Below, piece by piece: positions 48,519-54,191 of a DNA stretch of 64,000 nt; the first letter of the stretch is position 1; each line of letters begins with the position of its first letter. Under the pieces are notes generated by a model, which was not told where the DNA came from, ran no database searches, and saw only the letters and a program-made list of their open reading frames with translations. Position numbers and translations under genes: made by a program. The stretch is taken from the NCBI GenBank assembly GCA_016788585.1, contig JAEURP010000001.1, forward strand, positions 1 to 64,000, given 5' to 3'. Origin of the DNA: Chthonomonas sp. (GTDB taxonomy: Bacteria; Armatimonadota; Fimbriimonadia; Fimbriimonadales; Fimbriimonadaceae).

Positions 48519-49961
48519 GTGAAGAAACTTCTCGGATTAGTTGGATTGTTCCTTTTAGGGGCTCAGGCCTGCTTTGGCGATGATGCGCCAGCCCCAGCCA
48601 GCGTCGTCAAAATCAATCTGACCGCAAAGGCCGATACTCTGCCCCTATTCCCAGGAGCGGAAACCAATGTTTGGCGTTACGTAGTCTCGCCCCTTCCTCC
48701 GAACTCAACGAAGACCTCTTTTCCCGTCATCTACGTCAAGACCGGGCAGGTGCTCGATGTAAACTTCAAGAACGAACTTAGCGAAGCTACGAGCGTTCAC
48801 TGGCATGGCTTGGACATTCCCGCCTCTATGGACGGCCATCCGGCCGATGCGATCAAACCAGGTGGTTCCTTTCGATACCGTTTCATGGTTCCCAATCGAG
48901 CCGGCATGTATTGGTTCCACCCGCATCCGGACCAACGCACTGCGGTTCAGGCAGCAGCGGGCCTAGCGGGCGCCATTGTCGTTAGCGATGCTGAAGAGCG
49001 TGCCCTCACTCTTCCTCGGGGGAATCGAGATCAAGTCTTGATTCTGCAAGATCGCTATATCAGCGCAGGAAATCAGTTCCAGTACTCGGGCAATCCACAA
49101 CCGGGCTTCTTGGCCCCCCACATTCTGGTCAACAACAAGCGGAATGCAGCACAAAACGTTGAGACCGCGGTCTACAGGTTCAGGATTCTGAATGGCAGTA
49201 ATGCCCGAATCTATAAGCTTGCCTGGTCGAATAGTATGCCGATGACGGTACTTGGCGTCGACCAAGGGCTTCTTGCCGCCCCTGTGACTCGCAACTACGT
49301 AATGCTCGCACCCGGTGAGCGTATCGAGGTCTGGGCCGACTTTCGATCCATCGCAGTCGGAAACAATGTCAAGCTGATCAGCCAAGCCTTTACCCCTGGC
49401 GGACCGGCAATTGGCCTTGGGCTAAACCAGGGCGCGGCGTTCGACGTCATGAACTTCACGGTCAACGCAGCCGTTACCGATTCGATCGTGCTACCGTCGA
49501 TTCTTAGCTCTGGTGTGCCGGGCTATACGCTCGCTGGAGCGACTAATTTTGCCAATCCACGCCTGATTCCACTTTCGAGTTCTGGCGGCTTCTTTAGACT
49601 GAATGGCAGTCCGTTCTCAATGAATGTCGTTGCCTCAAATGAAATGCCCGTTCTTGGCGAAGCGCAGATTTGGGTTTTCCAAAACAATGCGACTACCCAA
49701 ATGCCCCACCCAATCCACCTCCACAGCTCAGGGTTTCGGGTCCTCGAACGAACGCAGTCGGGTGCTTTCCCTACCCAGGTCGCATCGATGCAAGATGGAT
49801 TTCTCGACGAAGGTCTAAAAGACACAACCCTGCTCATGCCAGGTGAGACTCTCAAGCTTGTCCAAAAGCCGCTCTTTTATACGGGCAAGTTCTTATATCA
49901 CTGCCATAACCTCGAGCACGAGGACACTGGCATGATGCGCAACTTCCAGGTTGTCCCCTAA
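48519..49961 (+). CDS. Multicopper oxidase
   Basis: 480 residues, GTG start, signal peptide (MKKLLGLVGLFLLGAQACFG). Three cupredoxin domains with copper motifs HWHGLD, WFHPHPDQ, MPHPIHLHSSGF and LYHCHNLEHEDTGMM. These supply the trinuclear cluster and the type 1 site (Cys in HCHNLEHED with Met ligand). It is likely a periplasmic oxidase of the CueO/CotA kind acting on Cu(I), Mn, phenols or similar. The substrate cannot be told, as no Met-rich insert like that of CueO is present. Its stop overlaps the stop of the next convergent gene (CTAA). Confidence 0.93.
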   Translation: MKKLLGLVGLFLLGAQACFGDDAPAPASVVKINLTAKADTLPLFPGAETNVWRYVVSPLPPNSTKTSFPVIYVKTGQVLDVNFKNELSEATSVHWHGLDIPASMDGHPADAIKPGGSFRYRFMVPNRAGMYWFHPHPDQRTAVQAAAGLAGAIVVSDAEERALTLPRGNRDQVLILQDRYISAGNQFQYSGNPQPGFLAPHILVNNKRNAAQNVETAVYRFRILNGSNARIYKLAWSNSMPMTVLGVDQGLLAAPVTRNYVMLAPGERIEVWADFRSIAVGNNVKLISQAFTPGGPAIGLGLNQGAAFDVMNFTVNAAVTDSIVLPSILSSGVPGYTLAGATNFANPRLIPLSSSGGFFRLNGSPFSMNVVASNEMPVLGEAQIWVFQNNATTQMPHPIHLHSSGFRVLERTQSGAFPTQVASMQDGFLDEGLKDTTLLMPGETLKLVQKPLFYTGKFLYHCHNLEHEDTGMMRNFQVVP

Positions 49962-50536
49962 CGGCGACGACGTCGCATAAGGGCCGCTACGCCAAGGCCA
50001 AGAGCTGCCATTGTCGCTGGCTCCGGAACAGGCGTTACAACGAACTCTAACGTGTAATTAGTTGGCGAGTTGAACTGGTTCATCCAAAAACTGTATTGAC
50101 CCGAAGGGAGTGGCGGAGTGAACACTTGCGATCCGAAGACCCCTTGTCCCATTACTGGGAGAATGTCTGTGTTCAGTTCATTCTGGCCAAAGTGAGCCCA
50201 GCCCAAAAGTCCCGCTGGGTCGGGAGCGTCGGGATCCACAGTAAATGTCGGACCCGTCGTCACGCCAATGAACATTAAGTCTTGGGTGTCAAACGAACGA
50301 ACAATGATGCTGGAGAGCTGCTTGCCTGCATCGAGGTTAAACGTGTAGAAGTCGAGTTCGCTATCACCTGTCGTGGCAAGAATCTCGTTAGAGCCGATTG
50401 ATAGGGACAAGACAGTGGGATTGAATCGGTCGCCCGAAAAATCTCCATTAATGGCTTCGTTCCAAACTACCGCTGCATTTGCCCCTTGGGTCACGGTCAG
50501 TCCAACAATTGCCAAAATTGGTGTGGAAAACTTCAT
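49958..50536 (-). CDS. PEP-CTERM sorting-domain exported protein
   Basis: 192 residues: signal peptide (...LTVTQGANAA), a beta-rich body with Asp/Asn-rich loops (SNEILATTGDSELDFYTFN, WAHFGQNELNTDILPV) resembling pre-peptidase C-terminal/DVUA0089-like domains, and the tail VPEPAT - MAALGLGVAALM - RRRRR. It is the second protein with this tag in the window. TACACT lies 8 nt before the ATG, giving a very short leader. Confidence 0.88.
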   Translation of the reverse strand: MKFSTPILAIVGLTVTQGANAAVVWNEAINGDFSGDRFNPTVLSLSIGSNEILATTGDSELDFYTFNLDAGKQLSSIIVRSFDTQDLMFIGVTTGPTFTVDPDAPDPAGLLGWAHFGQNELNTDILPVMGQGVFGSQVFTPPLPSGQYSFWMNQFNSPTNYTLEFVVTPVPEPATMAALGLGVAALMRRRRR

Positions 50537-50598: not shown

Positions 50599-51333
50599 CT
50601 ATTGGGACAGTTTGGTCAGCGCGGTCCTTAGTAACTTCTCAGACACAGGCTGATTACCCTCTCGGCTAAGGACGCGGACGATGGGCTCGTTCTTTTGTAT
50701 CCCACCTGTTGCCGAGTCGAGATCAGCGGCGATCTGGAGCATTTCCAACCCATCGACCAAAACATCTTCAAGCGATCGTGTGTTAAATGCCCCCTTGTGC
50801 TTTGTGATGTAGTCAAAGATGCCTCGAATCTGAGTGCTCCCACTACCTGCTGCCGCAAAAGGACCGCTTTGGAACCTTGCGCCGGCCGTATCGAAGAAAT
50901 AGACTCCGAATCGATCTGCCTTGGGATCATAGGCGGCCACGATTGGCAGAAACACTCCGATTCCCTCCATTGCCATACCAAGATTGCTGGCGAGAGCCCG
51001 ACTAATCTCTTGCAGCTTTCCTTCAAGAGACATTTCCCCAAATTGCATGCGCCGGTAGTACTTGAAACTGTGCTTCAAGAGGCGGCAAATCTCAACGGAC
51101 CGGGCAAACGAGCCGCTGATGGCCACGACCGTCCGGTCATCAAGCGCAAATACCTTTTCGGCCTGGTCGAACATGATCATGTTGCCCATGGTCGCTCGGC
51201 GATCTGCAAATGTAACCACGCCTTGGTCGAATTCTAGAGACAAGACGGTCGTACCGTGGGCTTCCTTATCAGGATGATAAGGCTTGGGTTGGTAGCCGAC
51301 CAACTCGGCGAAGGACCTGGGGGCCTTAGTCAC
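50599..51333 (-). CDS. prcB: 20S proteasome beta subunit
   Basis: 244 residues from a GTG that overlaps the UBact stop (GTGA). A propeptide of 27 residues ends ...KEAHG before Thr28, the N-terminal nucleophile after self-cleavage (TTVLSLEFDQGVV). Further beta-subunit marks: FADRRATMGNMI (Asp and Arg near the active site; a Lys in QAEKVFALDD), SGSFARSVEI, AAGSGSTQIRG and the DLDSATGG motif. It degrades tagged proteins inside the barrel. The alpha subunit (prcA) is not next to it in this window, unlike in Actinobacteria. Confidence 0.94.
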   Translation of the reverse strand: MTKAPRSFAELVGYQPKPYHPDKEAHGTTVLSLEFDQGVVTFADRRATMGNMIMFDQAEKVFALDDRTVVAISGSFARSVEICRLLKHSFKYYRRMQFGEMSLEGKLQEISRALASNLGMAMEGIGVFLPIVAAYDPKADRFGVYFFDTAGARFQSGPFAAAGSGSTQIRGIFDYITKHKGAFNTRSLEDVLVDGLEMLQIAADLDSATGGIQKNEPIVRVLSREGNQPVSEKLLRTALTKLSQ

Positions 51334-51506
51334 TCGCCACTCCTTTGTCGGTACTTCTTCGCCTGATCAGGATCCACCTTTTTCAGCCGCTCAGCCAAAG
51401 GGTTTGGCTTTGTCGGGCGCTCCTGTTTGGGAGAGCTTGGCCCTTCTTCATCGCTGTGCTTGCGACCAGGGCTAGGTTCAGGTTGTCGCGTGGTTCGTTC
51501 AGGCAT
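51330..51506 (-). CDS. ubact: UBact, Pup-like protein modifier
   Basis: 58 residues, too short for ordinary gene-length filters. It starts MPERTTRQPEPSPGRKHSDE, is disordered and rich in Pro/Glu/Lys, and ends KKVDPDQAKKYRQRSGE. That C-terminal block is the hallmark of UBact, the Pup relative described in several Gram-negative phyla including Armatimonadetes. The terminal Gly-Glu resembles Pup after deamidation, so the Glu side chain can be linked directly to a substrate lysine. The ATG overlaps the Dop-like gene by 8 nt and the stop overlaps prcB by 4 nt, so all three are translationally coupled. Confidence 0.92.
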   Translation of the reverse strand: MPERTTRQPEPSPGRKHSDEEGPSSPKQERPTKPNPLAERLKKVDPDQAKKYRQRSGE

Positions 51507-52872
51507 CGTCCAATCCTCTCAGAGCTTCTATAAACTCAAGTACGTTGGTTATCTCGGAGAGTTTCTTAGGATAGCTGACGTCTGGCCTCAGTTCGACCTC
51601 GCCCTGACGAAAAACCAAGCTGCGCCAACTCACACTAAGCAAGTCTTTCCGAAACTTCTCGACCGCAATCCCCCTTGCAAATGCTCTGGACCGCTGCCCA
51701 CCTTCATTGGGGTGCCAGTCCTCAATCTCATCTGCTTCAAGCAACGCTTGGTAGAGGCTTTCCTCGGGATCGAGGTCCGAATAAGCGAGGTCGATGGCTC
51801 TCGGATCGGGTGAGTTCGCCATTTCCACAAGGCGCTTTTTCGCTGCCCAGTCCACGCTTCGAGCAAACCCATCGAAGTCCCGATCGAGATCCACAAGGAG
51901 TGACCGACACTCATTGCCAATCTCAGAATCATCGAGGTACGAGGCGAGAACCTCTGCCGCTGTAACCACACGGTCCTTGAGATCAAGCTCGAATTTCTGG
52001 GATTCATCCTTGCTGATGGCCTCAAAGGAAGCCACTGGTGAAGCAAGGTCCCACTCCGGCGAATTGCCATCGAGCGCCATTTGAATGGCGCGTCCAACCA
52101 AGTACATCTTCCGCCTCGAACACGAAGGCATGCGGTTCGCATCGCCGGCAATGACGTGGAGCCTCATCCACTTCGATGGGTCAGCGTGGGGCTCGTCTCG
52201 GGTGTTAAAGACTGGCCGCCGATACAAGGTATCGACACTCGCCAACTCCGAGAAGTACTCCGCCCGCTGGCTCAGTTGAAAGTCGCAAGGTGTTCCGTGT
52301 TCATGGCCAACCTTTCCCGCCCCGGTCAATACTTGCCGCACGACAAGGATTGGCACCACGGCGCGCATGAGGCTCTCTACCGGCAAGGAGCGTGGCACCA
52401 GGTAGCTTTCGTGTGTTCCATAACTCGCTCCGTGGAAGTCCGTATTGTTTTTGTAAACCTTGACCCGTCTACCAGTCTGCGCCGAATACGCCTGAGCGGC
52501 TTGCCAAACGACCTGCTCGCCGTTCAGGTCATCCTGCATAACGGCATCTAAGCTTCCCTCTGCCGTCGCATATTCCGGATGCCCATGGTCGTTATAGAAG
52601 CGGGCACCATTGGGGAGAACGCGATCAGACCGCAAGTCTTTGGCGGGCGGCAACTGCTTGCCTTCGTCAAACTCAGCATCAATCGGGTCGACCGATAGTG
52701 CCTCCGCTTCGAATCCACGTAGGTCCGATCGCGGACCCTCAAAACGGTAATCCCAACCCACGAAACATGGGTTGGGATAACTGCGGACGACTTCAGCCGC
52801 GTCCTCTAGCTGTTCTTTCGGTCCGCGCCCTTCAATCCAGAGTCCATACTCTGTTTCGAGGCCGCAGAGCAT
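51499..52872 (-). CDS. dop: Dop/PafA-family enzyme, closer to Dop (UBact deconjugase)
   Basis: 457 residues of the carboxylate-amine/glutamine-synthetase-like fold. It begins with GLETEYG, the family's ATP/metal Glu motif. The next 60 residues hold a Dop-type insertion (WDYRFEGPRSDLRGF), then NGARFYNDHGHPEYATAE, KVYKNNTDFHGASYGTHESY, LSQRAEYF, FNTRDEPHADPSKWMRLHVI, and a C-terminal SWRSLVF. The insertion and C-terminus match Dop better than PafA. As the modifier already ends in Glu, deamidation is not needed and removal of the tag from substrates is the likely job. A ligase role cannot be excluded. The start overlaps the lipoprotein stop by 1 nt (TAATG). Confidence 0.9.
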   Translation of the reverse strand: MLCGLETEYGLWIEGRGPKEQLEDAAEVVRSYPNPCFVGWDYRFEGPRSDLRGFEAEALSVDPIDAEFDEGKQLPPAKDLRSDRVLPNGARFYNDHGHPEYATAEGSLDAVMQDDLNGEQVVWQAAQAYSAQTGRRVKVYKNNTDFHGASYGTHESYLVPRSLPVESLMRAVVPILVVRQVLTGAGKVGHEHGTPCDFQLSQRAEYFSELASVDTLYRRPVFNTRDEPHADPSKWMRLHVIAGDANRMPSCSRRKMYLVGRAIQMALDGNSPEWDLASPVASFEAISKDESQKFELDLKDRVVTAAEVLASYLDDSEIGNECRSLLVDLDRDFDGFARSVDWAAKKRLVEMANSPDPRAIDLAYSDLDPEESLYQALLEADEIEDWHPNEGGQRSRAFARGIAVEKFRKDLLSVSWRSLVFRQGEVELRPDVSYPKKLSEITNVLEFIEALRGLDDA

Positions 52873-54191
52873 TACCTTCGGTAGACGCCGAAGCCGCCAC
52901 TGGTTCCAAATGGCCAGATTCCAGGCGGCACACCCGTTACATCCCAGTCGCCGCGCCGGACCGTGCCATTCACCGTGACCAAGTTCGTGAGTGTTCCCTG
53001 AACTTCATTTGCCGGCACGGCATCGTCGATCGTATCGATTGGATACAGCTTGAAGATGTTCGAATTTGGATTTCCGCCGACGTTGTAGAACACGCTGCCG
53101 TACCAGAGATCAACGACATTGCCACCTGACGTTCGGTAAAGAACGAACTGCTGCCGAGCATTTGTCGCGCTGGCGGTGGTCTCACGGCTCGTCGGGAACG
53201 CAACTGCAACGGTCGTATCCGAAGAAGTGATGGCCGAACCAAACGGCTTCCAAGTACCTACGATACTCGTGTGGCGGGTTAAGGCTGGACCAGTGTCATC
53301 GAGAATGAACAGATTTGCGCCCGAAATTTGACTTCCAGGAGGCCCAATCGGAGGGCCTTGCGTGACCTTGCCGTTCTGGACATTGATGGGGTCCAGCAAT
53401 TCAAACTCTGAAGTGGAGCCCATTCCTCGGCTGTAGCCGTATCCATCACCGCTGAAATAAACGCGATCAGCGTTGCTGTTGTCGACGTGCAGTTGAGGCT
53501 TGCTCGACACGGCCGAGATATCAAAGGCCACATAGTCGGCGAACTGACTGATCATCTTGTTGTAGATCGGATTAAAGTTCGCAGTTCGGAACGCTGCATC
53601 ATCCCAGAAGATGGTGTCGTCGCCGAAGTTGTAGTTCAGCATCGAATCGTCGAGACGGACTGAGAAGTTGCTGACTCGGCCGGGGAAAACGCGAACGTCA
53701 GCTTCGAATGGATTCGGAGCTTGGAACGCAACGCCGTTGTCGCTCGTGCGGTTGGTCTCGGTCCCGTTCTGTCGCTCGATGAATTGCTTAATCTCGAGAA
53801 GATACTCTGCGTAGTTGAGCGAACTGGATCCAATTGGGAACTGAACGCCAAAGCCTTGGGCATTGATCGTGTAGCCATCCAACTGGACGTTCATTTCTTG
53901 CAGAACATTGTTCTCGCCGGTTGGAATAAAGTCGAACTGGCTGTTTTGGAACCGAACATTTCGGACGACGGCCGTTTGGGACTGCGCGGCGCCGCGAGGA
54001 AGGGTTCGACCCATGCCGCTCAAGAAGGTAGTTTGAACAACCCCACCCGAGCCAAGGCTAAACGTGGGATAAGTTCGACCACCGCCGCCACCGCCGCCGG
54101 GGCCACCGACACCGCCGCCACTACCATTGTCGCCACCGCCGCATCCGGCCAATAACGAAGCTACGCAAGCAAAGAATAACAGCTTTTTCAT
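52872..54191 (-). CDS. Lipoprotein coupled to the UBact locus
   Basis: 439 residues: lipoprotein signal MKKLLFFACVASLLAGC, then a Gly-rich flexible linker (about 19-38) and a large beta-rich domain without recognised family (NVLQEMNVQLDGYTINAQGF, FAADVRV-like strands, YFSGDGYGYSRGMG). The C-terminus ends GGFGVYRR. It precedes the Dop-like gene with a TAATG overlap, so it is the first gene of that operon. How an exported lipoprotein relates to a cytoplasmic tagging system is unclear. The arrangement could be incidental. Confidence 0.75.
   Translation of the reverse strand: MKKLLFFACVASLLAGCGGGDNGSGGGVGGPGGGGGGGRTYPTFSLGSGGVVQTTFLSGMGRTLPRGAAQSQTAVVRNVRFQNSQFDFIPTGENNVLQEMNVQLDGYTINAQGFGVQFPIGSSSLNYAEYLLEIKQFIERQNGTETNRTSDNGVAFQAPNPFEADVRVFPGRVSNFSVRLDDSMLNYNFGDDTIFWDDAAFRTANFNPIYNKMISQFADYVAFDISAVSSKPQLHVDNSNADRVYFSGDGYGYSRGMGSTSEFELLDPINVQNGKVTQGPPIGPPGSQISGANLFILDDTGPALTRHTSIVGTWKPFGSAITSSDTTVAVAFPTSRETTASATNARQQFVLYRTSGGNVVDLWYGSVFYNVGGNPNSNIFKLYPIDTIDDAVPANEVQGTLTNLVTVNGTVRRGDWDVTGVPPGIWPFGTSGGFGVYRR

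Follow-up and report, generated by a model that had tools for sequence, protein, structure and literature searches.

The closest described relatives of the locus analysed here are the UBact system, reportedly described by Lehmann, Udasin, Livneh and Ciechanover in 2017, and the actinobacterial Pup-proteasome system (PF05639, PafA, Dop, Mpa/ARC, PrcAB). Excerpts of the literature on such systems show that Pup-like tags end in G[EQ], as Iyer et al. already reported in 2008 (PMC2588565), that a Glu end removes the need for deamidation (2025 review, PMC12288473), that opening of the mycobacterial proteasome requires a GQYL end (PMC12288473, PMC8755798), and that homologues of Dop and PafA occur in draft Armatimonadetes genomes, though very sporadically in such phyla (Hecht et al. 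2020, PMC7947786). The locus reported here lies in a 64,000-nucleotide stretch of DNA that was analysed as a whole, hereafter the window. We put at about 0.9 the probability that it encodes the core (dop-UBact-prcB) of a protein-tagging and proteasome system of the Pup-like (UBact) kind, judged from the presence of the parts, their family membership and catalytic residues, their neighbourhood, and their joint presence or loss across genomes. It shares with the UBact system a modifier family scoring over both curated cut-offs, a Gly-Glu/Gln end, and a Dop-like gene and proteasome subunit alongside the modifier gene in a Gram-negative lineage; it differs, as far as tested and in gene order only, in that pafA, prcA and the ARC ATPase gene are on other contigs, and also in the lipoprotein-like gene that precedes dop. 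With the actinobacterial system it has in common PF03136, pup_AAA and the bacterial 20S alpha and beta families and, presumably, the chemistry, but the modifier matches neither the Pup model nor PDB Pup chains, the ATPase tail lacks GQYL, and the enzymes score below equivalog cut-offs. The phylum and enzyme families are those of the homologues in Hecht et al. 2020, but here PF03136 is widespread across the order, with 59 of 61 genomes carrying it.

All three genes are on the minus strand and overlap. In the direction of transcription, dop (51499..52872) encodes a 457-residue Dop-like, probable UBact-removing enzyme (PF03136, E = 6.4e-100); UBact (51330..51506), a 58-residue protein modifier with a C-terminal Gly-Glu; and prcB (50599..51333), the 244-residue proteasome beta subunit PrcB. 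The dop/UBact overlap is 8 nt (51499..51506), as in relatives G001, G003 and G004, and the UBact/prcB overlap is 4 nt (GTGA, 51330..51333), a length shared by most family members; together these overlaps suggest that translation of the three proteins is coupled. A scan for promoters and terminators returned nothing above chance. The preliminary description of this DNA had the three frames and both overlaps right, and the neighbourhood of dop and prcB on which it relied is kept in relatives; its range for the locus, 51330-52872, takes in UBact and dop but misses most of prcB, which reaches 50599. PrcB matches PF00227 (82.9 bits, E = 3e-23) and scores 130.7 bits against NCBIfam TIGR03690, below the equivalog cut-off of 191.9; among solved structures, the nearest to it are beta subunits of actinobacterial proteasomes. 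A 27-residue propeptide precedes the catalytic Thr28 already noted in the preliminary description (codon 51250..51252, minus strand); this residue stands where the mature chain should begin (HG|TTVL) and aligns with Thr1 of mature beta subunits. The catalytic triad is kept in alignment to PDB 2h6j: Thr28, plus Asp17 and Lys33 counted from Thr28.

Two other features of the window were recorded in passing. A gene for a PEP-CTERM protein (49958-50536, minus strand) lies 62 nt past prcB, an arrangement that is the same in G001 and G004 and absent in more distant relatives. The first 23 kb encode several secreted-looking proteins ending in a dockerin-like repeat, DxDxSGEVDAADIDxVIxxFG, with 11 pattern matches near stop codons (including 2464, 6102, 6259, 10982, 13959, 15051 and 16545).

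The remaining parts of the system are found elsewhere in the same genome. Contig C8 carries PrcA (TIGR03691, 66 bits, E = 3.2e-18; PDB bacterial alpha subunits, 3.4e-9), contig C18 a second PF03136 protein considered below, and contig C6 an ARC/Mpa-type ATPase (TIGR03689, 449.7 bits, under the cut-off of 504.75) with proteasomal-ATPase OB domains (PF16450, PF17758), an AAA domain (PF00004) and Mpa (5kwa, 2.1e-103) as its best PDB match. Dop, PafA, PrcA, PrcB and ARC all fall below their NCBIfam equivalog cut-offs. The tagging-degradation set is thus complete but scattered, its six parts occupying four places in the genome, and the working system proposed in the preliminary description gains a ligase, an alpha subunit and an ATPase, its activity being read from homology only. 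In G051, of a sister family, five genes stand together in the order dop-UBact-prcB-prcA-pafA, and the gene coordinates point to this order in G037 and G045 too. The window's family has kept just dop-UBact-prcB as a cluster, with prcA, pafA and ARC separated. In G009 (L132/L079, contig C4) even this trio has been relocated and now follows directly on the ribosomal genes rplM-rpsI.

The UBact system has already been described and is common in the phylum, and this locus is ordinary for its group and no new system, although comparison across relatives brings out two minor peculiarities that lend themselves to testing. Among 61 genomes, comprising the window's own and its relatives, UBact is present in 55, PF03136 in 59 and ARC in 58; a search of Armatimonadota, a phylum that has received little study, found UBact in 137 of 205 genomes, and named records with UBact are nearly all from Fimbriimonadaceae, Fimbriimonadales or other Armatimonadota. 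Two nearly complete genomes have neither UBact nor PF03136 nor ARC: G032 (97% complete) also has no proteasome-family protein, and G039 (96% complete) has a single proteasome-family frame of 189 residues that is probably HslV. The remaining four UBact-less genomes of the 61, all fragmented drafts, still have PF03136. In another family of the same phylum, two genomes each have a tandem pair of UBact-like matches (G066:C4:768105-768378, G067:C30:12142-12415), possibly a duplicated modifier.

Upstream of dop, and overlapping it by 1 nt, is a gene for a lipoprotein-like protein of 439 residues (52872..54191, minus strand), which begins with a lipoprotein-type signal (LLAGC) and matched no family in Pfam. 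Homologues (L071-L086 and others) occur in 34 of the 61 genomes, all within the window's family, and in nearly all of these the gene is directly upstream of dop. A structural model of the protein (pLDDT 82) has a beta-rich predicted fold, for which Foldseek returned no match at E <= 0.001 and VIA-align no convincing one (best Z 5.3, over 95 residues). We count this gene as a neighbour conserved in the operon, not as an established component of the system, because in G009 the trio has moved away from it. The lipoprotein and ATPase genes are only ~0.9 kb apart in G009, and a functional link between them was considered; we judged the closeness coincidental because the lipoprotein gene there keeps its yceD-plsX-fabH neighbours while dop-UBact-prcB adjoins ribosomal genes.

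The 58-residue frame is short and overlaps both of its neighbours, as might be expected of a chance open frame between two genes, but that explanation has practically no probability left and was rejected in view of the profile matches and substitution pattern. The frame matches PF20513 in Pfam (E = 9.4e-18, 64.2 bits, cut-off 27.8) and NF033388 in NCBIfam (62.4 bits, cut-off 35), so that by two curated models the predicted protein belongs to UBact; it is conserved across the phylum; and against two congeners its pN (0.17-0.18) is far below its pS (0.73-0.83), the more so in the last 26 codons (pN 0.06, pS 0.85-0.91), although these ratios are rough since synonymous sites are close to saturation. 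The UBact frame is plainly coding and under purifying selection. Its C-terminus is LKKVDPDQAKKYRQRSGE, the final four residues being RSGE, and the position, Gly-Glu end and UBact identity proposed in the preliminary description all stand, the last now by profile search. PF20513 is the sole Pfam family at E up to 1, the Pup model PF05639 giving no match, and a PDB search at E up to 10 returned no Pup chain and indeed no chain at all. The identity of the PF03136 enzyme beside it requires a similar weighing, since both homologues in this genome score under the equivalog cut-offs and the one in the window adjoins UBact. The window enzyme scores 285.3 bits against the NCBIfam Dop model (TIGR03688, cut-off 492.3) and 197 bits against PafA; falling under the former cut-off, it is filed as Dop-like within PF03136 and not as an NCBIfam equivalog. 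Aligned to solved Dop (5lrt, 4b0r) it shows the Dop-loop region and NGARFYNDHGHPEYAT, and it carries the catalytic Asp motif YNDHGHPEYAT (DHxHPEY) and the NTRDEPHA of Dop. The 488-residue protein on contig C18, which was aligned with the window enzyme, lacks the Dop-loop and has YIDAVGSHLEYATAE; it scores slightly higher with the PafA model (292 bits, against 280 for Dop), and its alignment with solved PafA covers the whole length. From the loop, motifs and model preferences of the two proteins, the window gene is probably the deconjugase and the C18 protein probably the PafA-like ligase, and an exchange of these roles is very unlikely. Within the family Dop is clearly less conserved than PafA (median pairwise identity 49% vs 64%, lower in 210 of 210 pairs), which, like the scores under the equivalog cut-offs, counts against the preferred reading. 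Frames of 552 and 476 residues had hinted at a fusion of Dop with UBact in G012 and G016, but the two frames end separately there and the idea was dismissed. In relative G006 (L076 3610-5353) dop is seemingly split into two pieces in different frames, perhaps an assembly error or a decayed gene.

The C6 ATPase ends in QKNIL, and among 32 ATPases of the order (L006, L042-L070, L131, L133) none has a GQYL end or a penultimate Tyr; the last position but one holds Val in 23, Ile in 8 and Met in 1, Arg stands fifth from the end in 24, and the common end is R-[RK]-x-[VI]-[IVL]. Coupling of ATPase and core is therefore not assured by the sequences, the tail lacking the penultimate Tyr that docks mycobacterial Mpa to the core. 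These tails would suit a system in which UBact tagging is mainly a reversible regulatory mark, with the proteasome as one outlet only or acting without ATPase docking of the mycobacterial type, as would the separation of prcA, pafA and ARC from the dop-UBact-prcB cluster in the window's family and the Pup systems without proteasome linkage that excerpts of Iyer et al. 2008 (PMC2588565) place in other phyla. That UBact and prcB share one overlapping cluster in nearly all family members, and that genomes retain or lose the core subunits, the ATPase and the tag as a set, argues against it, and we consider a mainly regulatory role unlikely, the preferred reading being a tagging and proteasome system.

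The terminal Glu codon of UBact is GAG (51333..51335, minus strand), as seen in the sequence and by comparison with relatives. Its first base, 51335, makes the difference from the closest relatives, congeners G001 and G004, which have CAG (Gln); its last base doubles as the first base of the prcB start, which is GTG here and ATG in relatives with terminal GAA or CAA. All 55 of the 55 UBact tags compared end in GE (22) or GQ (33), and on a tree of 49 Dop proteins the end changes at least 12 times, or at least 6 times if only branches with bootstrap >= 95 are counted and those below are resolved in favour of fewest changes. Single-base Glu/Gln switches occur even inside the window's genus. No statement of such frequent switching among close relatives was found in excerpts of the literature on Pup-like tags, and it is the only addition made here to the known G[EQ] end. 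The idea that Dop evolves faster where the tag ends in Glu was tried and rejected: the Dop/PafA divergence ratio showed no difference between 7 Glu and 14 Gln genomes (Mann-Whitney p = 0.49), a result consistent with tag removal being what keeps Dop. We offer as a tentative proposal, one that leaves more room for doubt than for belief, that in this order the ATPase opens and docks to the 20S core by a tail that has no Tyr and usually reads R-[RK]-x-[VI]-[IVL], unlike GQYL/HbYX, and that toggling of the UBact end between Glu and Gln makes the need for a Dop deamidase differ between sister species.

By homology with the described systems, each reaction step, and degradation itself, would proceed as follows. 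UBact carries Glu at its end from the start, so that no deamidation step is needed, and the PafA-like ligase encoded on the other contig would, at the expense of ATP, link this Glu through its gamma-carboxylate to lysines on target proteins. Recognition of the disordered UBact would fall to the ARC/Mpa-type ATPase, which would also unfold the target and thread it into the PrcA/PrcB core, where Thr28 would serve as nucleophile in its degradation. The Dop-like enzyme would cut UBact off again, both rescuing targets and recycling the tag.

The value of the locus lies in the comparison set to which it belongs, namely a large number of related genomes in which the tag-and-degrade pathway is complete, the tag flips between Glu and Gln by one base, and the ATPase tail lacks the Tyr regarded as essential for docking. 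Sister species within this set would allow one to ask why Dop is kept when deamidation is unneeded, and by what means an ATPase lacking the usual Tyr interacts with a bacterial proteasome.
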